A stretch of 41,815 bases of DNA. Source: a virus. Position numbers and translations under genes: made by a program. Below are positions 876 through 14,913 of the stretch, piece after piece. The stretch lies in IMG/VR virus record IMGVR_UViG_3300037493_000909, positions 1 through 41,815 of that record, one strand, 5' to 3'. The notes below the pieces were generated by a model. That model ran no database searches. It saw nothing but the letters and a program-made list of their open reading frames with translations, and was not told where the DNA came from. Each line of letters opens with the position of its first letter. Position 1 is the first letter of the stretch.

Positions 876-1841
876 ATGGCTACTTCAGGTAAACTTGTCA
901 GTTTAAAAACTATTGTAGAGAGAGTCTACATGGATTTTGGATTTAATTATTCACTATCATTCACAGAAGCTGCTGAATGGGCTGGCAGTTTACTTGCATT
1001 ACTCAAGGCACCTTTGATTTTAAAGCACCATGTTGAAGAGATTGTAATTGATGAAGGTAGAGGTAAACTCCCTTGTGACTTAGAATCTATTATTCAGACA
1101 GCTAGAAAAGTACAAGGTGTTGGTGATGGTTGTGCTACTGGTGTAATTGCTACTTTAGATAGAGGTACACAGTATGTAGAAATCTCTGCTATTGATATTG
1201 TAAATAGAAGAATGAGACTGTGTGGATGTAATGCATTTACTACTTGTGATGAGTGTACTACTATTGAAGGTCCTAATATTGAAAATAATATTCCTTGTGA
1301 ACCTCGTACTCCAATTATCAGAAGATATGGTGGTGGTACAGAGAAACCTAACTTTAGATTAGAGCCTATGAGATGGGCTACTGATTCATTTAATAATAAT
1401 ATGCATTGTACTGATAATGATTTTGGTTGCAAATCTGCAAACACATATACAGTCAATGGTAATTATATATTTACATCTTTTGACCATGGTTCTGTAATGA
1501 TGGCTTTCTTAGCTATTCCTACAGATGAAGAGGGTTACCCTTTAATTCCAGCAGATGAATGGTGGAGACAAGCAGTGCAGTATGAGATTGCTTATAAGAT
1601 TGCAATGAAACTATTTATTCAAGGTAACATTGCAGATAAAGTATATCAGCATATTGAAAGAGAAAGAGATTGGAAAGTAGCACAAGCTGTTAATAAATCT
1701 AAAATGCCTTCTATTGATGAGATGGAATCATTTAAGAATCAGTGGCTTAGACTTATTCCTAATTACAATAATCATAATACATTCTTTAAGAACATGCAAG
1801 TTCCAGAAAGAATGTTTAATCATCCATACAGATACTTTTAA
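876..1841 (+). CDS. Tail tubular / ring protein (P22 gp4-like role)
   Basis: The protein has 321 residues. Its size, position before a very large tail protein and helix-rich N-terminus (residues 1-60, with the segment SFTEAAEWAGSLLALL) fit the head-to-tail adaptor or tail-tube ring proteins of crAss-like phages, which play the role of P22 gp4. A cysteine cluster near residues 113-138 (CGC, then CDEC, then a later Cys) is unusual for such a protein and could bind metal. The C-terminal part contains a helical region (WWRQAVQYEIAYKIAMKLFIQGN) and an aromatic tail (NHPYRYF). It starts 5 bases after the previous stop and ends 3 bases before the next ATG. The function is inferred mainly from context and family layout. 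Confidence 0.6.
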   Translation: MATSGKLVSLKTIVERVYMDFGFNYSLSFTEAAEWAGSLLALLKAPLILKHHVEEIVIDEGRGKLPCDLESIIQTARKVQGVGDGCATGVIATLDRGTQYVEISAIDIVNRRMRLCGCNAFTTCDECTTIEGPNIENNIPCEPRTPIIRRYGGGTEKPNFRLEPMRWATDSFNNNMHCTDNDFGCKSANTYTVNGNYIFTSFDHGSVMMAFLAIPTDEEGYPLIPADEWWRQAVQYEIAYKIAMKLFIQGNIADKVYQHIERERDWKVAQAVNKSKMPSIDEMESFKNQWLRLIPNYNNHNTFFKNMQVPERMFNHPYRYF

Positions 1842-1844
1842 TAT

Positions 1845-4800
1845 ATGCCAGTCAGTAAAAATACATGGAATAAGGGACTTAACTCTGATTTATCTAAACT
1901 CAAAAGCCAGCAAGATAGTTATCTTGATGCTAAGAATATCAGAGTAATGACAGATGAAGGTTCATCTACTTTTGCTATAGAGAACATCAAAGGCACTGTA
2001 TTTAATTTTACTTTACCAACTGTTGAAGCTACTTATAAGATAGACTTCACAAATGCAACTGGTACATTTCAATTTGAAATTACAAGAGGTATTTACACAA
2101 TACCTATTACTTTAACTAATGTATCTCAAAAAGATAATATTTCATTATCACAAAGTATTAATGATCAAATACAATTAAATATTACAGTACCTGGTTATCA
2201 ATACATTAGAGCATATTATAATTCTAATTACATAGTTATATATGATTTTAAACCAGAGTCTAGTACAGCAGCTACTATTGCTTTAGTATTAGTTTCTGGA
2301 GATGCTGTTATAACTACAAGAACTGATAGAATAATTTCACATACTATTTTAGGTTGGGGATATTACAATAACAACCTAGTATTAATTAGTTGTTCATCTA
2401 CTAGTAATGATGAGGACCCTATTAATACTGAAGGGTTTATATGGGATATTGAGTATGACAATCAAACTAATGAAGTTGTACTTTCACAAATTGATGGTAT
2501 TAATTTAAATCCTGATACTACATTAAAGTATGCAGGTAAATTAAATTTATCAAGACAGCATGCTATTTCTAAACACTTAAAATGTAGATTTGAAAATATA
2601 TCTATCACAAGAGTTGTATGGACAGATTGGAATAATAATCTAAGGACTTGTAATGTATTGGATCCACAGATCTGGGCAACACCAGAATCATTACTTTCTT
2701 ATATACCACAATCTTTTGGTCAAAAACCTGTTGTAAAGTTAGTAGTATCAGGTGGTACATTACCAACAGGTAAGTACCAATACTTTTATCAGCTATATTC
2801 TGCACAAGGTGCTAAGTCTACATTCTCTCCTTTAAGTAATTTAATTACTTTATTTCCTGGAAGTCTATCTGATTACACAACACCAGGAGTAGCAACTGGT
2901 ACTAACTCTCAAAAATCTGTAAGTATTAACATTCAAAATATAGATACTAATTATGATAGTATTAGAACAGGTTACATTGTTTACCAACTAGCAGATTTCC
3001 CAGAAGCTTTCTATTTTGATGAAAGAGCTGTACCTGATACAGGTAATTTAACTATTGTACATAATGGTAATGAGAATGATATTCCATTAGACTCAACAGA
3101 AGTTGCTAACCTTAATAGAACTCCAGAAGTATTTAAAACTATTGATGTAGCAAGAAATAGATTATTTGCTGCTAATGCTATTACTAAATACTTTGATCTT
3201 ACAGATCAATTTGATTCTAGAGCATATAGATATAACTCTAGTTTTATATCTAACCTTTATAATAATGATGATACTTATGGAAATGCATCTGTAGTTATTG
3301 ATTCTTATTTTGGTACTATAAGTATTAATGGTGATCCAGCAGTACCTTTAGATTATGCATTAATACCAGAAACCTTTGATTGTATTAATTCTTTTAATAA
3401 AGAGAACAATGATATAACTACAAATCCATTTTCTAATGGAGACTGGGCTACTAATTCACAGTTTAAATATGATGCTTTAGGTACTACCATTGGTGGTACA
3501 GGACCTAACATTAGTTATGAATTCTGTACTGTAGATCAAGTAGCTAAAGTTGGGAGTAGTTGGTCTCAACATACTCCTTATATAAATCCAGCTATTAATT
3601 TTAGCAGCCCAGAAGAAAACGGTCTTATATTTTCAGATACTTATACTTACCCAGGTGGTAGTGGTTCTGCATTAGATACTATGAAAAGTCCATATCTTGA
3701 AACTCTTTTTACAGGGTATTCAAGAGGTGAGGTTTATAGATGGGGTATTGTATTTTATGATATTTATGGTTATCCGTCTTATCCATTGTGGATAGGTGAT
3801 ATTAAATTTCCATTTGCTTCTGATCAAAATGGTGACTTTGGACTTACTAGATTGGGAGATTTTGATGCTCAAGGTAATAATGTAAGAGTAATTCAAATGG
3901 GTATTAGATTCTCTTTAGATACTAATACAGATCAATTTAAATCTATTAAAGATAAGATATCAGGTTACTCATATGTAAGATTAAGAAGAGACCTTGTAGA
4001 TAGTACTAGATTAGGTACTGGATATATTCAGCCTACTTACTATAATGATATGAGTACATTTGCTGGACTAATTCCATTTTACAATGAAGTTTCTTTACCA
4101 TTAGAAAATAGATGGATATATGATGCATCAAGATGTATTGAAGCAGTACAGACTTTTACAAGTCCAAATCTTTTATCTAGATCTGTTGGTTCTTTTGGAG
4201 AACTAGATTATTTAAGATTTATAGGTAGAACTAATACTTATGGTAGTAGAGTTCAATATGCTACAAATATTACAATACCTGACTTTGGTATTAACTCAGC
4301 ATACTATATAGCATCAGGAGATTTTAACTACACATACAGTGATGAAAGTTATACAGCATTTGCTGATTGGACAGCTGCAGATAGAAAGTTTCCATTATTA
4401 GATAGATTGTATGTAGCTTATTCAAGTAATAAGAATTCAATACCAACAAGTACATTAGTTACTGATGCTTCTTTTCCTGAGTTTATTAACATGAGTAGTA
4501 AACTTGATGCTGATTATAATTTAAGAGCTTTTGGTGAATGGGGGGCAGAAACAGAATTACTATCTTTTGATAGTGGTAATTCTAACTTTGGCAATATACC
4601 ACATCCTGATACACATTTAATTTATGAAACATCTCCTTTTACTGGTGGTATGTGGTTACCAATGTACCTAGCTTCTTATGAAAGATTTCTAACAGAGCAG
4701 TACAAAGGATGGACTAGAGCAGATAGATATGCAAATGAGTATATTCTAGCTAATCACTTCATGCCAATAAATGGTATTACTAGTGTTAGTACATATAAAA

Positions 4801-6239
4801 ATGATGTGTATGGTGGAGATACTTATGTAAATTATTTTGATTGGCAAAGAACTAATGTCAATTATCTTGCTGGTAGTGGTTGGGAACCAGCTCCTGATGA
4901 TGGTAATAATATAGCAGTAGCTATTTTCTATCCAGCTGAAGTAAGATATAATACAGAATTAAATATACAAACACAACACGCTTCTGTAAGAGAAACTACA
5001 AATACAGTTACTCAAGGTAATTATCAATACAATTATGCATACTCACAGCAAAATACCAGTAATGTATTTATTGCTAAAGCTTATTTACAATCTAGTATTG
5101 TAAGAGAACCACATACTATCTATCCATCAGAACCTAAACTTGATGGAGAACAGTTAGATTCTTGGAGAAGCTTATTAGTTAATAATGCATTATCTGTTAA
5201 TGGTAACTATGGTGAGATTAATAGAGTAATACAATTTAAAGATAAACTATTTTATTACCAAAATGATGGTGTAGGTATTGCAGCAGTTGATGAAAGAGTA
5301 CTTGCCAATGAAGGGGATACTACACAAACTCAATTAGGTACAGGATCTGTATTACAAAGATTTGATTATGTATCTACAGAGACTGGTTGCAAGCATTCCT
5401 TTGCTGTAGAATCTACAGGCTCATCTATTTATCACTATGATTCTTTTATCAATAAATTATTTAAATATGCTGTAGGTAAAACTAAAGATGAGATATCAGG
5501 AATGAATCCACTAACTGATGTTAAAGGATTATCTGGATTCTTTAGAACTGCTTTTGTTGGTAGTACTCTTAAATCAGAAGATAAGATTTTAAGAAGTGAT
5601 AACAGAGTAGGTATTGTATCTTCTTTTAACTCAGAATATAATACTGTTTACTTTACATTCTTTGACCAAGCTAGTAGTATTGAACACACTATATCTTACA
5701 ATGAATTACTAGATGCATTTGAATCATTCTATGATTTCCACCCATCTATGTATATTAATATGAGAAAAAGATTCTTATCTATTGCACCAACAGGATCATA
5801 TACAAATGTATATACTCATAATATTGGAAGTAGAAATACTTTCTATACTACATACTATCCATCAAGTATTACATTTAGAGTTAATGAGAATTCTGACTTT
5901 GTTAAAACCTTTGATAACTTTCAAGTTAACACAGAAGTTATACTAAATAACTTACAGTTAGCAGAGACAATATCTACAATGACTATTACTAATGACTATC
6001 AAAATGTTTCACAACCATTTGTTAACTTTACACAAAAGATAAGAAGCTGGAGATTAGCTATTCCAAGAGATGAAACTAATCCTGCCTTGACTATTAAACC
6101 TAGAATATCAGATAAGTATATGGATGTTACATTTACACATGATGCTAAATTAAAGGCACCAATAGATGTTAACAAAGTATTTAGACTACATGATGTGATA
6201 ACAGAATATTCAATGAGAAGTAAAATTGTACCTAAGTAA
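1845..6239 (+). CDS. Giant tail stabilisation / muzzle-type protein (P22 gp10-like role)
   Basis: The protein has 1464 residues and is rich in Asn, Thr, Ser, Tyr and short beta strands, as expected for a large beta-propeller-like tail protein. The N-terminus (NTWNKGLNSDLSKL, then SYLDAKNIRV and a Gly/Ser turn) matches the opening pattern of phage stabilisation proteins that play the P22 gp10 role, here greatly enlarged as in crAss-like phages. There is no signal peptide or clear membrane segment. It lies between the ring protein and the xGG repeat protein. It probably closes the distal end of the tail and contacts receptor-binding proteins; this is inferred from family layout. Confidence 0.6.
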   Translation: MPVSKNTWNKGLNSDLSKLKSQQDSYLDAKNIRVMTDEGSSTFAIENIKGTVFNFTLPTVEATYKIDFTNATGTFQFEITRGIYTIPITLTNVSQKDNISLSQSINDQIQLNITVPGYQYIRAYYNSNYIVIYDFKPESSTAATIALVLVSGDAVITTRTDRIISHTILGWGYYNNNLVLISCSSTSNDEDPINTEGFIWDIEYDNQTNEVVLSQIDGINLNPDTTLKYAGKLNLSRQHAISKHLKCRFENISITRVVWTDWNNNLRTCNVLDPQIWATPESLLSYIPQSFGQKPVVKLVVSGGTLPTGKYQYFYQLYSAQGAKSTFSPLSNLITLFPGSLSDYTTPGVATGTNSQKSVSINIQNIDTNYDSIRTGYIVYQLADFPEAFYFDERAVPDTGNLTIVHNGNENDIPLDSTEVANLNRTPEVFKTIDVARNRLFAANAITKYFDLTDQFDSRAYRYNSSFISNLYNNDDTYGNASVVIDSYFGTISINGDPAVPLDYALIPETFDCINSFNKENNDITTNPFSNGDWATNSQFKYDALGTTIGGTGPNISYEFCTVDQVAKVGSSWSQHTPYINPAINFSSPEENGLIFSDTYTYPGGSGSALDTMKSPYLETLFTGYSRGEVYRWGIVFYDIYGYPSYPLWIGDIKFPFASDQNGDFGLTRLGDFDAQGNNVRVIQMGIRFSLDTNTDQFKSIKDKISGYSYVRLRRDLVDSTRLGTGYIQPTYYNDMSTFAGLIPFYNEVSLPLENRWIYDASRCIEAVQTFTSPNLLSRSVGSFGELDYLRFIGRTNTYGSRVQYATNITIPDFGINSAYYIASGDFNYTYSDESYTAFADWTAADRKFPLLDRLYVAYSSNKNSIPTSTLVTDASFPEFINMSSKLDADYNLRAFGEWGAETELLSFDSGNSNFGNIPHPDTHLIYETSPFTGGMWLPMYLASYERFLTEQYKGWTRADRYANEYILANHFMPINGITSVSTYKNDVYGGDTYVNYFDWQRTNVNYLAGSGWEPAPDDGNNIAVAIFYPAEVRYNTELNIQTQHASVRETTNTVTQGNYQYNYAYSQQNTSNVFIAKAYLQSSIVREPHTIYPSEPKLDGEQLDSWRSLLVNNALSVNGNYGEINRVIQFKDKLFYYQNDGVGIAAVDERVLANEGDTTQTQLGTGSVLQRFDYVSTETGCKHSFAVESTGSSIYHYDSFINKLFKYAVGKTKDEISGMNPLTDVKGLSGFFRTAFVGSTLKSEDKILRSDNRVGIVSSFNSEYNTVYFTFFDQASSIEHTISYNELLDAFESFYDFHPSMYINMRKRFLSIAPTGSYTNVYTHNIGSRNTFYTTYYPSSITFRVNENSDFVKTFDNFQVNTEVILNNLQLAETISTMTITNDYQNVSQPFVNFTQKIRSWRLAIPRDETNPALTIKPRISDKYMDVTFTHDAKLKAPIDVNKVFRLHDVITEYSMRSKIVPK

Positions 6240-6240
6240 T

Positions 6241-9200
6241 ATGGCAGAGAAAAATTCACTTTGGAAAAATATAAGAGCTAATAGAGGTTCAGGCAAAAAG
6301 CCTACTGCAGAAATGCTTAGACAAGAAAGAAAGATTAAAGCTAAGTATCCTGATGGTGGGCCAGTAAAAGATGGTTATTTAAATACTCCTGTAGAGCAAG
6401 TAAATACAGGATCATTATATAATCCTGTTAGTAATAGAATACATTCAGATCCCAGTGATCCATCAGATGCTTTACCCCATGAGTATTACCATGCTTGGCA
6501 ACACCAAGAAGGTAGAGATAGACTACCTGAATTATATGATGGTCCATTAAGACAACCTCAAACTCCTTATGTAGATGAATTAACAGCTGACTATTATAAT
6601 AGAAGAGGGTTTGAAGAGAATGCTATTAACAGTGAATTTAAAAGTGATAACCCTAGTTTTAATTTTGTACCTGATAATGTAATGTATGATAAGTATACAA
6701 ATGCTGAAATGTACAATAGACCATATACTTTAGAAGGGGAAGCTAGAGCAACAGAATCTCCTGAAGGTAGAGAGTGGTTAAAAAACGAAGGTATGTTACC
6801 TGAAGGTATTGAGAATATGTACAATGCTACAGGTGGACCAGTAAAAAGAGGATTTCTTGAAGAGAGAGAATTTAGAAAAGAGTATGATAAGTATGCTGAT
6901 GCTACAGGTAATGCTACTAATCCATATGATGTAGAACACTATTATAACTATTCAAAGCTATATGATGAAACTGGTGGTATAATGCCTCATTTATCTGAAG
7001 GCCATTTACCTTCTGAGTATAAAGAACTAGGACATCCTAATCTTTATATTGAAGGTAGAAATACTAAAACATTTGCTGGAGGTGGTCCTACTAAACCTAT
7101 CTACATATCAGATCCTAATAAATTTAAAAAAAGAGAACAGGCTTATAAAGATAGTTCTGATGTATATAATGCAGTACAGTTTTTAAATAAAAATATACCT
7201 ACTGCTACTAATGCATTAATGACTAGCAATACTTGGGAAGATCCTATAGTTAAAAAAAGTGAAGTAGTATCAAATAGAACAGGTATTAATCCTACAAAAA
7301 CAGGTAAAAGAATTCCTCAAGCATATTCAGTTAACACAGGAAGTAAAGATTATTATGATCAATTGTATTTAAAAAAACCTACACCAGTAGCATATAAACC
7401 AAATCCTGTTGCTGTAGAAAATCCACATTCTACAATTAATACTGAAAGATTAGAACCTTTAGGATTTACAAGTATTAATCAACAAGAAGAGTTAGGTCTA
7501 AAAGACTTCCCTAAACAAAAAGCATATATTAATAGAGGTGCTAATAGTGGGTATGATGCCAATGGTAATCCTTTAGTTAGTGAAATAAATAAAGGTAATG
7601 GTAAAGGGTGGGAGCAAGTTCCATATAATACATTAGATCAGTATGAAGAAATAAAAGCTCAAGGAGGTTATTACCCTACACAAGGCCCACCAAAAGCATT
7701 ATTTAAAGGTTATGCTGAAGGTGGTTATACTAATCCATATAATATGTACCATAAAGATCCACACTTACAATATGCTAATGGTGGAAGAACTTGGAAGAAT
7801 ATAGGTGCTGGTGCTTTTGGTGCTCTTGAAGGTATTGTAGATACAACTTTTGGATGGGTTCCAGGAGTTGATATGGCTACTGATATGGCTTATAAAGGAT
7901 TACAAAAATTAGGCAGATCTACAGAAGATGAAAAAAGAGAGCAAGATTCTATCCACGGTTATGGGCAAACAGCAGGTGCAGTTGGTAGTGCTATTTTAAC
8001 AGGTGGTGCTACAACAGCAAGTGCTATTTCAGAAGGTTCTCAAGGATTAGGGCAAGGTATATCTAGAGGTAATGAAACTAGTGATGTTGCAAGAGGTATT
8101 GGTACAGGATTAGGTATTGCAGGAGGAGTTGCTGGTACTATTTATGGTAGTACTGAAGGTGCCAAAGAAGCAAAATCACAATTTAAAACAAGTGAAGCAG
8201 GTAGTCAAGGGTTAGGTAAGTTTGCAGCATCTGCTCCTATAAAAGGATTTAGTGCTGCTCCTAAAGGAACTATGCAAGGAGTACTTGATGGAAATGCTGT
8301 AAGCATGAAACCTGGTACTGATGTAGCAAGTTCTGTTAAACCTACACCTTCTACAGGGTATTTTTCTAACCCAAGTGCTGCTAATAATATTAACAATCCT
8401 AATACTTTTAATAAAGTTGGAGATGTAACAAATCAAGTTGCTAGCTTGCCTAAATCACAAGAACAGCCACCAATGGCACCGCCAGTAGCTGTAACTCCTC
8501 CACCTGCATTACCACCACAAGTTGACTACAATCAATTTGCAGTAAATCCTCCTACTTTTAATACAGGAGTACAACCTCCAGATTATAATTTTGGAGCAGC
8601 CCCTACAAATAACTATTTTTCACAAGGAGGAAACATAACAAATAATTCATTAAATTTGCGTAATACTATGAGATACAAGAAATTTGCCAAAGGAGGCACA
8701 TTTGATCAATATGGAATAAACTATATTCCAGAATCAGCAGGACTGCATCATGAGAATGCTTATGGTGGTGTACCTATTGGACCTGATGCTTTAGCAGAAG
8801 GTGGTGAGATTAAAATGGATACTGGAGATGGTGGTCAATATATAGTATCAGATCAAGTAGATGGTGCTGAATCTCAAAAGGATTTTACTTTCTCTAAAGG
8901 AGGTAAGTACAAAGAACTTAATAGAACTTTAGCTGATGGTATGAAACAAGACCTTAAAAAATATTCTATGGGTAATTTAGCTACTAGTGATAGAGTTAAA
9001 GATGATTTAAGAAGACCTAATGATTCTTGGAATAGTATAGATCAAGTTAAAAAAAGATGGCAAGAAAAAACAGAGTATGCTAGACAACGCAGCCAGCAAG
9101 AGCAAGCTATTGCACAAGCAGAAGAACAAAAAAGAATGGCAGAAGAGCAGTACATAGCTGCTTACGGTGGTAAAATTAATCCTAAGAAATACCCAGGATT

Positions 9201-11580
9201 AAATTATGCTAAAGGTGGTATACATATTAAACCAGAAAACAAAGGCAAGTTTACTGCATCAGCTAAAGCTGCTGGACATTCTGTTCAAGAACATGCCGCT
9301 TCTGTATTAAGAGATCCTAATGCAACACCTCTTCAAAAAAAGAGAGCTAACTTTGCAAGAAATGCTGCAGGTTGGAAACATGCTGATGGTGGTTATGTGT
9401 ATAACCCAATGACTCAACCTATGTTAGCTGAAGGTGGTCCATTATATGGAGATCCTGCATCACCATATACTTATACAATGGGTGGACCTAATAAACCTTG
9501 GACTGCTCCAATTCCTATTGGAAGTAATGTGCAGCAGGGTTCTAATAGTACATTATCTGTAGGACATGGTAATATAGATAATACACAATTTGGAAGTAGA
9601 ATTATAAATGAATATGATAATGGATTACCTAATGATACTTCTTACATTTATCAATCACCCAAAGAAGATTATTTTTATAATACAGGACAAAATACACAAA
9701 ATGGTAAACCAGTATCTAATTTCAATTCAGGTTCTGCTGCACCTCTTGGGAATAATATATATCAAGATAAAATTAAAAAACTAGCAGGTTATGCTAGAGG
9801 CGGTATGTATGGTGATCCTTATTACAGAGGTGGAGAAATAGATTACACTAATGATATGTATGCAGGTGGTGGTCCAATGGTTAGTAATGTAAATCAACCT
9901 TTTAAAGGACCTGCTGCACAGAACAGGGGTGGTATGTATATTTATCCTGATGGTGGTATGATGCCACCAGAACAGCAAATGATGCAAGAGCAGCAAATGC
10001 AACAACAAGCACCACAAGAGCAACAAGGTGGTCAAGATCAAATGATGCAAATGGTTCAGCAAGTTGAACAAATGTTACAGCAAGGCGCACAGCCTGAGCA
10101 AGTAATGCAACAACTTGTACAATCAGGAGTACCACAAGATATGGCTATGCAAGCTGTCCAAATGGCTATGCAAGATATGCAAGGTCAACAACAACAACAA
10201 CCTATGCAGGGTCAAGAACAACCTATGCCACAAAGTATGGCTAATGGGGGTATTATGTATCCTGATGGTGATAGAAAAGTATACACAGATCTAAAAACTT
10301 TTCAAAATGCTAACACTGCATATAAAGATAGTTTAGATACTTACAGTAATGTTAATGCAATTAATACAAGAATTAATTCGCAGATAGCAAAACCTGCTAA
10401 TCAAAGATCTTTTTCAAATCAATCACAATTTAAACCTTGGATGAAAGGGTTGGTAAATAATGCAGTTAGTAGTGGTGATATAAATCCTAGTCTTTTGCAA
10501 AATGCACCTGTACAGCAAATTCAACATGTTAATGGTCCAGTTACTAATTACACACCAGTAACTGCTACTAAACCAAAAGTAAGACCAATATTTCAACCAC
10601 CAGCACCTATTACTAATTCACCTGCAGTAACACCTACACCAGTACAAGCTACACCAGTGCAGCCTACACCTCAAATGCAGTCTAACCCAGCAGCACCTAC
10701 AAATCAACCAAGTAGGGTTTATGATCCAGGTGGAAAAGGAAGACCAGGTAGATGGCTTGATTTAAATGATGATAGTCAAAGAAAACCAGCGTTATTGCAA
10801 AATAAAGCTAATCAAGTTAGTTCAGGTAATGTTAATATGTTACCTCTTATTAAAGCAGAAGGGGGTTACTTTAATGGTAAAAAACAATATTCTGGAATGG
10901 ACAATACTGTACCACCAGTTATTCCACCTACTAATCCTGTATTTAGTCCATTAGCTGATGAAAGTACTATGTCACAAATAGCAGGTTTAGGACAAGCTGT
11001 TGTACCAGCACTTACTTCAGCATATGCTTTTAATAAACTAAGTAAAAGAAAACTAACACCATCTTTAACACCTGAAGTAACAATAGATTATACTCCAGCA
11101 AGAACAGCTATGATGGAAGAAAATAGACGTAATGTTTCATCAGGGTTAAATGCTATGAGAAATGTAGCACCTACATCAGGTTCTTTTATGGGTAATGCAA
11201 GAGGAGCTGTATTAGATGCTAATAAACTTTCAGGCGAGCAGATTGCTAAAAGCTGGCAAGACCAAAAGAATAAACAAGCTGAGTATGATTATGGTGTTGG
11301 GTCAACTAATGCAGGCATTAAAAATAAAATTAATGAACTTAATGAAGAGATGTACCAAAATGCTATGCAAACAGGATTTGAATCAGCAGGCCAAGGTGTT
11401 AAAAATGCAACTGAATACTATTCAGATCTAGAAAATAGAAAATTACAAAGATGGCAAGCACAAAATACTTCTGGTGAAAACTGGACTTGGACCCCTAAAG
11501 GAAAAGCATTTAGAAATAAAGACGGTGTTTATATGATAAATGGCAAACCAGTAGACCCTAGTACAGGAAATCCAACTTAA
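6241..11580 (+). CDS. Giant xGG-repeat virion protein with an N-terminal zincin motif
   Basis: The protein has 1779 residues. I chose the ATG at 6241 (MAEKNSLW) over the in-frame ATG at 6226, because the latter overlaps the previous stop. Near the N-terminus HEYYH (residues 80-84) followed by E113 in DELTADYY forms an HExxH...E metalloprotease signature. About 20 short motifs of the type YAxGG, FAxGG or LAEGG recur along the chain, spaced irregularly by linker-like sequence. A basic segment near residues 990-1047 (GGIHIKPENKGKFTASAKAA, ending ANFARNAAGWKHADGG) resembles a module I recall from many phage structural proteins. Residues about 1240-1335 are Gln/Met-rich. The C-terminal 250 residues are helical. 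It is probably an internal or tail virion protein; its exact role is unknown. Confidence 0.6.
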   Translation: MAEKNSLWKNIRANRGSGKKPTAEMLRQERKIKAKYPDGGPVKDGYLNTPVEQVNTGSLYNPVSNRIHSDPSDPSDALPHEYYHAWQHQEGRDRLPELYDGPLRQPQTPYVDELTADYYNRRGFEENAINSEFKSDNPSFNFVPDNVMYDKYTNAEMYNRPYTLEGEARATESPEGREWLKNEGMLPEGIENMYNATGGPVKRGFLEEREFRKEYDKYADATGNATNPYDVEHYYNYSKLYDETGGIMPHLSEGHLPSEYKELGHPNLYIEGRNTKTFAGGGPTKPIYISDPNKFKKREQAYKDSSDVYNAVQFLNKNIPTATNALMTSNTWEDPIVKKSEVVSNRTGINPTKTGKRIPQAYSVNTGSKDYYDQLYLKKPTPVAYKPNPVAVENPHSTINTERLEPLGFTSINQQEELGLKDFPKQKAYINRGANSGYDANGNPLVSEINKGNGKGWEQVPYNTLDQYEEIKAQGGYYPTQGPPKALFKGYAEGGYTNPYNMYHKDPHLQYANGGRTWKNIGAGAFGALEGIVDTTFGWVPGVDMATDMAYKGLQKLGRSTEDEKREQDSIHGYGQTAGAVGSAILTGGATTASAISEGSQGLGQGISRGNETSDVARGIGTGLGIAGGVAGTIYGSTEGAKEAKSQFKTSEAGSQGLGKFAASAPIKGFSAAPKGTMQGVLDGNAVSMKPGTDVASSVKPTPSTGYFSNPSAANNINNPNTFNKVGDVTNQVASLPKSQEQPPMAPPVAVTPPPALPPQVDYNQFAVNPPTFNTGVQPPDYNFGAAPTNNYFSQGGNITNNSLNLRNTMRYKKFAKGGTFDQYGINYIPESAGLHHENAYGGVPIGPDALAEGGEIKMDTGDGGQYIVSDQVDGAESQKDFTFSKGGKYKELNRTLADGMKQDLKKYSMGNLATSDRVKDDLRRPNDSWNSIDQVKKRWQEKTEYARQRSQQEQAIAQAEEQKRMAEEQYIAAYGGKINPKKYPGLNYAKGGIHIKPENKGKFTASAKAAGHSVQEHAASVLRDPNATPLQKKRANFARNAAGWKHADGGYVYNPMTQPMLAEGGPLYGDPASPYTYTMGGPNKPWTAPIPIGSNVQQGSNSTLSVGHGNIDNTQFGSRIINEYDNGLPNDTSYIYQSPKEDYFYNTGQNTQNGKPVSNFNSGSAAPLGNNIYQDKIKKLAGYARGGMYGDPYYRGGEIDYTNDMYAGGGPMVSNVNQPFKGPAAQNRGGMYIYPDGGMMPPEQQMMQEQQMQQQAPQEQQGGQDQMMQMVQQVEQMLQQGAQPEQVMQQLVQSGVPQDMAMQAVQMAMQDMQGQQQQQPMQGQEQPMPQSMANGGIMYPDGDRKVYTDLKTFQNANTAYKDSLDTYSNVNAINTRINSQIAKPANQRSFSNQSQFKPWMKGLVNNAVSSGDINPSLLQNAPVQQIQHVNGPVTNYTPVTATKPKVRPIFQPPAPITNSPAVTPTPVQATPVQPTPQMQSNPAAPTNQPSRVYDPGGKGRPGRWLDLNDDSQRKPALLQNKANQVSSGNVNMLPLIKAEGGYFNGKKQYSGMDNTVPPVIPPTNPVFSPLADESTMSQIAGLGQAVVPALTSAYAFNKLSKRKLTPSLTPEVTIDYTPARTAMMEENRRNVSSGLNAMRNVAPTSGSFMGNARGAVLDANKLSGEQIAKSWQDQKNKQAEYDYGVGSTNAGIKNKINELNEEMYQNAMQTGFESAGQGVKNATEYYSDLENRKLQRWQAQNTSGENWTWTPKGKAFRNKDGVYMINGKPVDPSTGNPT

Positions 11581-11599: not shown

Positions 11600-13834
11600 A
11601 TGAAATTATTTGAATACAAACCAACAGAATATGTTGATGTTCATCCTGATCTTCCGTTAGAATGGATGCAGCAAGAGATTGATAAAACTCAAAATAAATA
11701 TGATGCTAAGCTAGGAGCTGTTAATGAACTTAATAAGCAGTTTGCTGACATGAAAGCAGGAGCACAAACTCAAGAAGAGCTTAAAACAATTAATGACGAG
11801 TATTCAAAAAGAATTAATGACATGGTATCTGGGTTAACTACAACTGGTTATATACCACAAACTAGTGCTGACCTTGCTAAATTTATTAGTGAAGTATCAT
11901 TTGACCCAAGAGTTAAACAAATAAAAGATGATAGAGAAGCGTATGAAATACATCAAAAAAATCTACTAGATCCTCAATATGCAGGAGGTGTTGATATGCT
12001 GCAGTACCGTAAACCTGGAACGCCGTATGATCCTAGCCACTATAAAATTATTCCTGCGTCAGATAGTGTAGCTAAATCAAGAACTGTTGCACAAACAATG
12101 CATCCTAGTACTATTGATGGTGGTAAAACTTGGACTGTTACTGATCCATTTACTGGACAAACTGTAACTAGGAATTCTTATAGTGATGCTGTAGGTGTAT
12201 CTAAAGAAAGAATTGCAGCATACACTGATGCTAATTATGTTAACTGGAAAACAGATCCAGATTCATATGCTGATAGGGTACAACTTTCTGGTAATGATAT
12301 GTCTTTTTGGGATAAACCTGAAGGTAAAGCATTATATGATCAAAAGATGAAAGCTTTAGAACCACTTGCTTATCAAACTGACACGACTCCAAAAACTGCT
12401 GCACCAGCTGCTAAACCAGTTAAACCTGCAGGTGAAGAAACAGATGGGTTGCCTAAAACAATTAATAAAAGTCAAACTTACGGATATACAGAAGGATTAG
12501 GTATTAACTACGAAGGTAACTTTATGAATAATTACACTGAAGTAGATAAACAATCTAGGTATCATAATGATCAAATTTCCGCATTAGAAAATAATTATAA
12601 TAATCTTGTAAGAAGTGGGTTAAAAGATAGCGATCCTAGAGTAAAAGAAGCAGCTAAAAAATTAAGAGATGTTGTTGATGAATCTGTTATACATGAAGAT
12701 AGAAGAAGAGCAATAGAAGGTAAAAATTATGACAAAGATTGGTCTGTAGATGTTGAAAAAGCTAAAGAAGAAAATTCTCTTATACAGAAATATAATGATA
12801 TGGCTAATAGTATTAAAGAGCATCCTAAGCAGCATTTATTTTTTAATGATGAATCAATTGAGAAAGCTGTTAGTGAATATAAAGAACTTGCGCAAAAAGA
12901 ATTATATAAAACTTTAAAAGAAATGAACTCTCCAGCAGGAGATGTACTAAAAGCATATGAAGAATATGCTGATTTTCAAACTACTGGCAGGTCTTATGTA
13001 GTACCTGAAGAGTCTAAATACCTTGTAGGGGATTTAGTTAAAAGTTTACTTAATGATAATGTATCAGCTAAAAATATAATAAGCGATTTACCAATGGATG
13101 CAGAAAAGCAAAAGAAACTATTTGCATCTCTTTACAATAAAGAAACTGGTGAATATGATTTTAAAAGACTTTCACCATCTATAAATTTAGATGATAAAGA
13201 TGGCCCAGTATTAATATTAAGCGGTCTTTTAGATGGAGATGAACATGTTAGTCTTGAATACAAATTAGAAGATACTCCAAATATTAGAGAAGTATTATAC
13301 AATATAGCCCCAGAAGAAGAACATCAAAAATTAAATTATTATGTAAATGCTACCGAGTCTTTGAAAAAGACAGGTGGTAGAAAAGGAGAATTTTCAGTTG
13401 ATAGATATGACGGTACTAAAGATAATTTTGAATTTACAAAAGTAGCTTTAGGTAAAGGTAAATGGGGTTACAAAGATTCTAAAGGCGTTGTTCATGGTAG
13501 TATTTCAGATCTTATAGATGGAAATATGGCAAGTATAACCAGTATGGATATTATAATGAAAAGATTAAATGAAGAGTTACAAATTTCACAAAATCCAAAA
13601 ACAGGAAATCCAGAAAAAGCAGCTGAACTACATAAAAAACTAACTAATTTAGTACACGCTGATAGAATAGAAAGAGAACTGCATCCTATAACAGGCAAAC
13701 CTATGACAACTGCAGATAGAGAAAAATATATAACTAGAAAAGAACCTGTAGAAAAACCAGAAGCAGTACCAACAACTACTAGTGCTTTGGGAAAGCAACA
13801 ACCTCAGACTCAGAGCAACAGTCTGGGGTGGTAA
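11600..13834 (+). CDS. Internal/cargo-type virion protein; zero frame of a putative -1 frameshift pair
   Basis: The 744-residue product has no enzyme motif that I can recognise. Its N-terminus (MKLFEYKPTEYVDVHPDLP) is followed by a charged helical, coiled-coil-like region (residues 20-75), then mixed segments and an Ala/Pro-rich linker near residues 255-275. The C-terminus is a flexible Pro/Thr/Gln tail. It lies among the large virion genes, so an ejected or cargo role is likely. Its last 14 codons carry a G GGA AAG slippery site and a stem-loop. A -1 slip there would fuse the first 732 residues to the downstream hydrolase, giving about 1104 residues. The zero-frame stop lies just after the stem. 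Confidence 0.65.
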   Translation: MKLFEYKPTEYVDVHPDLPLEWMQQEIDKTQNKYDAKLGAVNELNKQFADMKAGAQTQEELKTINDEYSKRINDMVSGLTTTGYIPQTSADLAKFISEVSFDPRVKQIKDDREAYEIHQKNLLDPQYAGGVDMLQYRKPGTPYDPSHYKIIPASDSVAKSRTVAQTMHPSTIDGGKTWTVTDPFTGQTVTRNSYSDAVGVSKERIAAYTDANYVNWKTDPDSYADRVQLSGNDMSFWDKPEGKALYDQKMKALEPLAYQTDTTPKTAAPAAKPVKPAGEETDGLPKTINKSQTYGYTEGLGINYEGNFMNNYTEVDKQSRYHNDQISALENNYNNLVRSGLKDSDPRVKEAAKKLRDVVDESVIHEDRRRAIEGKNYDKDWSVDVEKAKEENSLIQKYNDMANSIKEHPKQHLFFNDESIEKAVSEYKELAQKELYKTLKEMNSPAGDVLKAYEEYADFQTTGRSYVVPEESKYLVGDLVKSLLNDNVSAKNIISDLPMDAEKQKKLFASLYNKETGEYDFKRLSPSINLDDKDGPVLILSGLLDGDEHVSLEYKLEDTPNIREVLYNIAPEEEHQKLNYYVNATESLKKTGGRKGEFSVDRYDGTKDNFEFTKVALGKGKWGYKDSKGVVHGSISDLIDGNMASITSMDIIMKRLNEELQISQNPKTGNPEKAAELHKKLTNLVHADRIERELHPITGKPMTTADREKYITRKEPVEKPEAVPTTTSALGKQQPQTQSNSLGW
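13789..13828 (+). promoter_or_regulatory. Putative programmed -1 ribosomal frameshift signal
   Basis: The heptamer GGGAAAG (13789-13795) is read as G GGA AAG in the upstream frame, the sequence used for the lambda gpG/gpGT frameshift. It overlaps a second X XXY YYZ site, T TTG GGA (13786-13792). After a 6-nt spacer (CAACAA) comes a stem-loop: 5' arm CCTCAGACT (13802-13810), 9-nt loop, 3' arm AGTCTGGGG (13820-13828), 9 bp with one G-U pair. The -1 frame is open from just after a TAG at 13780-13782 through the hydrolase gene. The elements and spacing fit a classical -1 frameshift cassette; its use is inferred. Confidence 0.75.
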
Positions 13835-14913
13835 CTACTAGCTCAACAGATAAATACAAAAATTATAACACTGCTGTATCAGGTCCTGAGTCAGGAGATA
13901 GTTATACTATAGTAAATAACTCTGAATATAAAACTGTAGATAATAAAAAAGTTAAAACTGAAAAACCTGTAGAGCAATGGGCTATTGGTAGATACCAACA
14001 TTATTACAAACATCAAGAAGATAAAATTATAGCCGCTTTAAAAGAACAGGGTGTAGATACAGCAAGTCTTAATAAAAAAGAAATAGCTAAAGCATACAGC
14101 AATTCTCCAAAAGCACAAGAAGCAGTACAAGCCCAATTAAATGATATAAATTTTAAAATTGCTGAAAAGCAGATTGAAAAACATGGACTAAAAGCCCCTG
14201 TTGAAGAAGTTGCTTTTTTAAATCATTTTTTAGGTAATGGTGGTGCTAATAGATATTTAGGTTACTTAAAAAAATATGGTCAAGAAAAAGCAGATCAAAT
14301 AATGGCTTATGGTAATGATCCTGAAGATCCTAATTTTAAAGGTATTGGTGGGCCTAATTCTTCTAAACCAAATACTTTAGTATCTGATCATATAGTATCT
14401 TTTAGAAAAGGTAACACTACTACTACTGATAATAAAATTGCTTCTAATGAACCTAAAGTTGTTGCAGCAGAAACAGAAAAACTTTTTGATGATGTTGTTA
14501 GTAGTTACACAGGAGTTCAAGAAGGTAATTTAAATGGTATAGATGAATTACAATATACCCCTATGGGTTGGGGAGCTAATAGAGGTGTAAAGAAAAAAGG
14601 TCAAAATTGGCCTGGTCATGGTGATCATATACATATAAGTTTTACAGATCCTCAAATTGCTATAGCTATAATTAAAAAAGCAGAGGAGATAGGATTAAAT
14701 GCAGATGAAAATCTTTACTCAAAAGGTAAAGTAACTAAAGGTGCGCATTCAGTAAATAGCCATCATTACAAACAATTTGAAGGAGAGTATGATGGTAAAC
14801 AATTAAGTAAAGGTCTTGATATAAATAAAAATGGTACTAAATTAACAGCAAAAGAAGCTGATGCTAAAATGAAGCAGCTTTATAAATGGATTCACCAAAC
14901 TTATTCAATATAA
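13828..14913 (+). CDS. Virion peptidoglycan hydrolase: lysozyme/transglycosylase-like domain plus LAS-type peptidase motifs
   Basis: As an independent gene this would start at GTG and give 361 residues, but no ATG precedes it in frame and that GTG is the last base-paired position of a stem-loop, so it is probably made as a -1 fusion to the 744-residue protein. Residues 16-61 (AVSGPESGDSYTIVN ... AIGRYQ) match the catalytic-Glu and GRYQ pattern of lysozyme-like transglycosylases, with E21 the likely acid. FLNHFLGNGGANRYL near residues 129-143 supports this. GHGDHIHISF (H267, H269) is the HxH metal motif of LAS/M15-type peptidases. HSVNSHHY...GLDI (H312/H313, D331) looks like the other half, in reversed order. 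It probably cuts the cell wall during entry. Confidence 0.65.
   Translation: MVTTSSTDKYKNYNTAVSGPESGDSYTIVNNSEYKTVDNKKVKTEKPVEQWAIGRYQHYYKHQEDKIIAALKEQGVDTASLNKKEIAKAYSNSPKAQEAVQAQLNDINFKIAEKQIEKHGLKAPVEEVAFLNHFLGNGGANRYLGYLKKYGQEKADQIMAYGNDPEDPNFKGIGGPNSSKPNTLVSDHIVSFRKGNTTTTDNKIASNEPKVVAAETEKLFDDVVSSYTGVQEGNLNGIDELQYTPMGWGANRGVKKKGQNWPGHGDHIHISFTDPQIAIAIIKKAEEIGLNADENLYSKGKVTKGAHSVNSHHYKQFEGEYDGKQLSKGLDINKNGTKLTAKEADAKMKQLYKWIHQTYSI

Follow-up and report, generated by a model that had tools for sequence, protein, structure and literature searches.

The viral DNA analyzed here, the entire IMG/VR record IMGVR_UViG_3300037493_000909 (41,815 bases, henceforth the window), contains a long open reading frame (ORF), designated B, which ends in a slippery heptamer followed by a stem-loop, and an overlapping -1 frame, designated C, which lacks an ATG start. 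Comparison with related genomes makes ribosomal frameshifting at the B-C junction close to certain. It is also probable that this programmed -1 frameshift loads exchangeable cell-wall hydrolases onto a subset of the copies of an ejected cargo protein. The virus is crAss-like, as evidenced by its genes for tail ring protein 1 and the muzzle protein.

The recoding cassette and its conservation

The 0-frame codons at the junction in the window read GCT TTG GGA AAG CAA CAA CCT CAG ACT ... TGG TAA, with the stop of B at 13832-13834. The slip site is G_GGA_AAG, the heptamer of the lambda G/GT system. The arms of the downstream stem, CCTCAGACT (13802-13810) and AGTCTGGGG (13820-13828), enclose the loop CAGAGCAAC, and an A-U pair (A13801-T13829) could extend the stem from 9 to 10 base pairs (bp). 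The -1 frame is uninterrupted from 13783 to 14913 and offers no ATG within reach; the sole GTG available to C, at 13828, begins on the final base of the 9-bp stem. The predicted products are thus of 744 amino acids (aa) in the 0 frame versus 1104 aa following a -1 slip after Lys732, the predicted frameshift junction peptide being LGKATTSDSEQQSG. A first-pass annotation, made from the sequence of the window, had described the heptamer, spacer, stem, loop, stop and open -1 frame exactly to the base, and the reading frames confirm its product sizes (744 and about 1104 residues) and its statement that C lacks an ATG and has its only GTG on the last paired base of the stem. It had also pointed out an overlapping heptamer, T_TTG_GGA, which is present in the window but not conserved among the relatives, in contrast to G_GGA_AAR.

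Neither B nor C found a match when used directly as a query against viral contigs and phage records, and a scan of genome contigs with a profile of the lytic-transglycosylase-like domain yielded no relatives. The relatives were reached through a search with the muzzle protein, after which longer stretches were retrieved. Homologues of B occupy the same gene position in each of them and are of two types. Proteins of the first type (L017, L018, L019 and L025) start with M.RFYKP..REYVST; in L017-L019, in which the gene end is covered, a large gene comes directly next, while the L025 copy leaves its contig. Those of the second type carry the cassette at their end (L015, L016, L020, L032, which equals L021, L030, which equals L024, and L031, which equals L027). 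A search with the C domain added two cassette loci: L037, which has the same sequence as L038, and L040, a more distant one that is also considered crAss-like owing to the muzzle protein gene just upstream. The window and eight further genomes (L015, L016, L020, L030, L031, L032, L037 and L040) constitute the nine independent cassette genomes, among which the identity of the upstream protein falls to about 15-20%.

In all nine genomes G_GGA_AAR lies in the 0 frame with C in the -1 frame (GGGAAAG in eight, GGGAAAA in L016), the distance from the start of the heptamer to the end of the 0-frame stop is 46-61 nucleotides (nt), and the stem begins 4-7 nt past the heptamer. The in-frame GGGAAAR heptamer is otherwise rare: in the first genomes surveyed it occurred 9 times in 56,458 codon positions, and 7 of these 9 were the cassette junction. 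For five out of seven genomes examined, the local folding energy of the cassette belongs to the lowest 0.5% of the record, and in the window it falls within the lowest 0.5% among all 50-nt segments. The low folding energy, the rarity of in-frame G_GGA_AAR and the recurrence in eight other genomes together argue that the cassette is not a product of chance.

The stems differ in sequence but are kept paired by double-sided compensatory changes. Across the genomes, pair 6 is G-C or A-U, pair 7 is A-U, G-C or C-G, and pair 8 is C-G, U-A or G-C. The pairs were counted by script, because a MAFFT alignment of the stem arms misplaced two rows, and reliance was placed on per-pair compensations only, since a swap test is biased when the arms have been selected as stems. 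Three sequence features expected of programmed -1 frameshifting are present: an X_XXY_YYZ heptamer in the 0 frame, an overlapping -1 ORF without a start (L040 excepted) and, about 5-9 nt downstream, a structure conserved by compensation, weak in L032. The comparison of relatives proposed in the first-pass annotation thus came out in its favor, with heptamer and stem kept in nine genomes in which B has diverged and the downstream domains differ.

A generic finder (in-frame heptamer near the end of an ORF plus a long -1 extension, on both strands) detected no further ATG-less cassette beyond that of B-C over the loci sampled, including L033-L035 and L046-L053. The cassette itself was not found in crAss001 or in the other sampled loci of described crassviruses, the same L033-L035 and L046-L053 included.

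Two additional observations concern the sequence around the slip site. Shine-Dalgarno-like sequences of the AGGAGG type were observed to start 15 nt before it in three of the nine genomes, and none in the window; this is a known position of stimulators in some bacterial frameshift sites. In addition, the 0-frame tail of B ends in a common (G/D)PLGLG(R/K)-like peptide in L016, L030, L037 and L040 (and L031), the rest of B being very diverged. The RNA stem imposes part of this tail, which may also serve a function of the short form.

Domains encoded by the extensions

Among the nine C extensions, seven carry a lytic-transglycosylase-like domain and one (L015) a clear M23 endopeptidase (PF01551, E 6e-29), while that of L032 has no family match. 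The first of these is a single domain common to the window, L016, L020, L030, L031, L037 and L040. In hhalign comparisons its 8-row profile matched the phiKZ gp144 family with a probability of 95% (E 3e-8, 99 columns), lining up the motifs E-S, G-K-Y-Q and H-F-x-G-x-G-A. A profile built from the window and L020 reached 88% over only 50 columns (the HF.G.GA region), and reversed and unrelated controls gave 0.4% at most. The invariant Glu of the domain, encoded at 13888-13890 in the window, is matched in the alignment to Glu 115 of gp144, the catalytic residue of that protein. The assignment of the C domain as lytic transglycosylase-like, by remote homology to phiKZ gp144, is thereby supported. 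Internal virion proteins of the T7 type are among the relatives of gp144. The earlier reading of C as a cell-wall hydrolase is backed both by this profile homology and by the M23 domain of one relative. In 14 records, the lytic-transglycosylase-like and M23 domains were confined to the cassette.

Comparison of the window C with Pfam, PHROGs, NCBIfam and PDB sequences yielded nothing significant. Its AlphaFold model as a whole reached a predicted local distance difference test (pLDDT) of 54 and gave no usable fold match. The model of the L030 domain reached a pLDDT of 83; Foldseek returned no significant match for it, T4 lysozyme recurring among the weak ones.

The window C contains a second, C-terminal region, whose GHGDHIHIS and SHHY...GLDI motifs resemble, as motifs, the zinc ligands of M15/LAS peptidases; profiles and the PDB gave no match. 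L020 and L031 bear a near-identical C-terminal part of C behind unlike N-terminal domains, and the C domains have evidently been shuffled between genomes. A long region without family match follows the hydrolase domain in L020, L031 and L015, and a similar long region occurs in L032; the near-identical C end of L020 and L031 reads ANNGKITPAQLAI.RNQEPQAGAAEILLNE, and those of L015 and L032 are similar-looking. Separately, a 496-aa hypothetical protein of Leptolyngbya phage Lbo-JY46 (L045, 2900-4387) carries this same lytic-transglycosylase-like domain C-terminally, in one frame.

The upstream protein and its gene neighborhood

In phiCrAss001, the gene order is muzzle (gp44), cargo 1 (gp45), cargo 2 (gp46) and RNA polymerase-associated protein (gp47). 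ORF A of L003 and L020 matches crAss_CARG1 (E 3e-5; L020 2.9e-5), just under the curated cut-off. Since ORF A of the window is homologous to the cargo-1-like ORF A of L020, B occupies the position of cargo 2 (gp46), flanked by cargo 1 and the RNA polymerase-associated gene. The 4464-aa gene that follows C holds the position of the giant RNA polymerase-associated cargo gene, in the same order as in crAss001; a domain match was sought for it and none obtained. B is termed cargo-type, rather than gp46, because sequence homology to gp46 was not detected. The cargo assignment of the first-pass annotation accordingly stands as regards synteny and the cargo-protein-1 domain just upstream in relatives, but not as regards homology to gp46.

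The cargo-1-like ORF A varies in length from about 1640 to 3010 aa among L003, L004, L006, L007, L008 and L020, and the N-terminal part of the L020 copy resembles a metallopeptidase (PF14891, sub-threshold).

Features of the B-C cassette and neighboring genes. Positions refer to the window, except in the last three rows, where they refer to the locus named
Feature	Position	Strand	Remarks
Tail ring protein 1	876-1841		
Muzzle protein	1845..6239	+	PF25731, E 2.5e-130; marks crAss-like identity
ORF A, cargo-protein-1-like	6226..11580	+	Homologous to L020 ORF A
ORF B, 0-frame product of 744 aa, cargo-type	11600..13834	+	By synteny (position of crAss001 gp46/cargo 2) and homologues
Overlapping heptamer T_TTG_GGA	13786..13792	+	Not conserved among relatives
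Slippery heptamer G_GGA_AAG, 0 frame	13789..13795	+	Kept in nine genomes
-1 frame extension C, 372 aa	13795..14913	+	Joined after B residue 732 (Lys732)
Spacer CAACAA, 6 nt	13796..13801	+	Relatives' spacers 4-7 nt
Stem-loop, 9 bp, 9-nt loop	13802..13828	+	About -15 kcal/mol; compensatory changes
Lytic-transglycosylase/lysozyme-like domain of C (putative)	13849..14340	+	Invariant Glu, GRYQH, HFLGNGGA; hhalign
Second, C-terminal region of C	14610..14825	+	GHGDHIHIS and SHHY...GLDI motifs
Gene after C, 4464 aa	14961..28355	+	Own ATG; position as crAss001 gp47
Shine-Dalgarno-like sequence, L016	3102-3107		
Shine-Dalgarno-like sequence, L040	5989-5994		
Shine-Dalgarno-like sequence, L015	3231-3236		AGGAGA

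Proposed role, alternatives and comparison with known systems

According to the proposed mechanism, most ribosomes would complete B and produce the 744-aa cargo-type protein, while some would slip at G_GGA_AAG into the -1 frame with the help of the stem-loop, which lies 6 nt further on, and thereby append 372 residues, including the lytic-transglycosylase-like domain. B would most likely be packaged and ejected together with the rest of the cargo proteins. Ejected by this route as well, the fused copies would bring the wall-cutting domain into the periplasm, where they would breach the peptidoglycan so that cargo and DNA can pass. The hydrolase domain of T7 gp16 acts in much this way. The slip rate would fix the number of fused copies per virion. 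The slip efficiency, the minority status of the fusion, its location in the virion, its cutting of peptidoglycan and its role in entry are inferred. We lean, by a modest margin, towards a more general view in which the recoding module acts as a socket: the cargo-type protein and slip site would remain constant, the attached enzyme (transglycosylase, M23 endopeptidase, transglycosylase plus peptidase-like region, or others) would be exchanged to suit the host wall, and the slip rate would set the dose per virion.

Several findings weigh against the loading of wall hydrolases onto an ejected cargo protein. The match to lytic transglycosylases is remote, Pfam, PHROGs and phmmer being negative and Foldseek not significant. 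L032 has the weakest stem, of 5 bp, and an extension without a recognized hydrolase domain. The C frame of L040 has an ATG 6 nt past the 0-frame stop. Finally, hhalign compared B with gp46 at a probability of 0.1%, and cargo status rests on gene order.

A genuine frameshift might instead serve lysis, in which case the endolysin, and not an enzyme of entry, would be the fusion or one of its fragments. The domains of the cassette are of kinds that endolysins also use, but C stands among cargo genes and is joined to the long B protein, and homologues of its domain are found on T7-type internal virion proteins. Moreover, the cassette genomes G005, G012 and G014 carry a separate M15-type endolysin-like gene, which renders a lysis role less likely, and we regard it as improbable. 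The gene concerned (Peptidase_M15_3, 171-178 aa), probably a separate endolysin, was observed upstream of the ring and muzzle genes in G001, G003, G004, G005, G011, G012, G013 and G014.

It is very unlikely that the frameshifted B-C protein is an assembly factor resembling lambda gpG/gpGT and missing from the mature virion. The heptamer and the logic are those of lambda G/GT. The products gpG and gpGT are indeed not found in virions (PMC5009743), but the present gene sits among crAss-like cargo genes, not ahead of a tape measure gene, B measures about 720-840 aa, and the extension is a wall-hydrolase-type domain that is exchanged across genomes.

Just as little credence is given to the proposal that C is a gene of its own, whose translation begins at GTG 13828 and is coupled to termination of B, with the heptamer being incidental. 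The window, L015 and L020 each have a single GTG within the B/C overlap, that of the window at the 0-frame stop of B, and the ATG of L040 lies just past the stop. In contrast, the C frame of L016, L030, L031, L032 and L037 is free of ATG codons over the whole stretch between the heptamer and a point 90 nt past the stop of B, and free of GTG codons within the overlap and immediately beyond; a TTG occurs in the C frame of L030, 33 nt past the stop. Since five of the nine genomes thus lack an ATG or GTG for C, coupled re-initiation cannot be the general explanation. A separate start would, furthermore, need neither the heptamer, nor the distance to the stop, nor the stem, yet all three are conserved.

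A decayed or mis-assembled fusion gene, i.e., a single ORF split by a real or a sequencing frameshift, might be suspected in metagenome contigs, but this is in practice refuted by the comparison: all nine independent contigs break at this one heptamer, the proteins to either side are intact and diverged, and no one-frame B-C fusion was found among the relatives.

The crassviruses are abundant, and the cassette bears on how their cargo and DNA cross the cell wall. The structure paper on phiCrAss001 assigns roles in ejection, and its text does not mention a lysozyme. If the loading of wall hydrolases by frameshift is correct, one crAss-like lineage would have a candidate enzyme for penetrating the wall, and recoding would be seen to control the dose of an enzyme within a virion. 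It would also provide a testable rule, namely that the copy number of the fused form should match the slip efficiency. Annotation pipelines would treat C as a separate gene with a poor start, thereby losing its link to B. In the literature, of which coverage was partial, we found no report of ribosomal frameshifting in Crassvirales virion genes or of the attachment of a virion hydrolase by frameshift.

The B-C cassette resembles several known systems in part. It shares with phiCrAss001 gp45/gp46 the order of muzzle, cargo 1, cargo 2 and RNA polymerase-associated protein, and differs in that neither the frameshift nor the hydrolase extension was found in crAss001 or the sampled loci of described crassviruses. 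With lambda G/GT it shares the heptamer G_GGA_AAG, a -1 shift shortly before the upstream gene ends and, as predicted, a minor longer form. This heptamer is highly shift-prone in E. coli (PMC5009743). The lambda proteins are assembly chaperones absent from virions (PMC5009743), whereas here a putative wall hydrolase is attached to a cargo-type protein. A stable stem after the slip site is a further difference, and, rather than a short chaperone ahead of a tape measure gene, B is a 744-aa protein encoded between the cargo-1-like and 4464-aa genes.

Recoding likewise supplies some copies of a virion protein with a C-terminal domain in the head protein of Lactobacillus phage A2, the tail protein of SPP1 and TpeX of the 936-group phages (PMC5009743, PMC6669499, PMC6105707). 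In those phages, shifts of -1 or +1 furnish major structural proteins with surface, adhesin or capsid domains; here, the predicted addition is of the enzyme type, and the protein that receives it is an internal, cargo-type one. In this respect the cassette is reminiscent of T7 gp16, an ejected internal virion protein with a lytic transglycosylase (PMC8954989), and gp144-family homologues occur on T7-type internal virion proteins. T7 has its transglycosylase domain at the N-terminus, with no change of frame, whereas that of the present virus would be C-terminal and added by frameshift.
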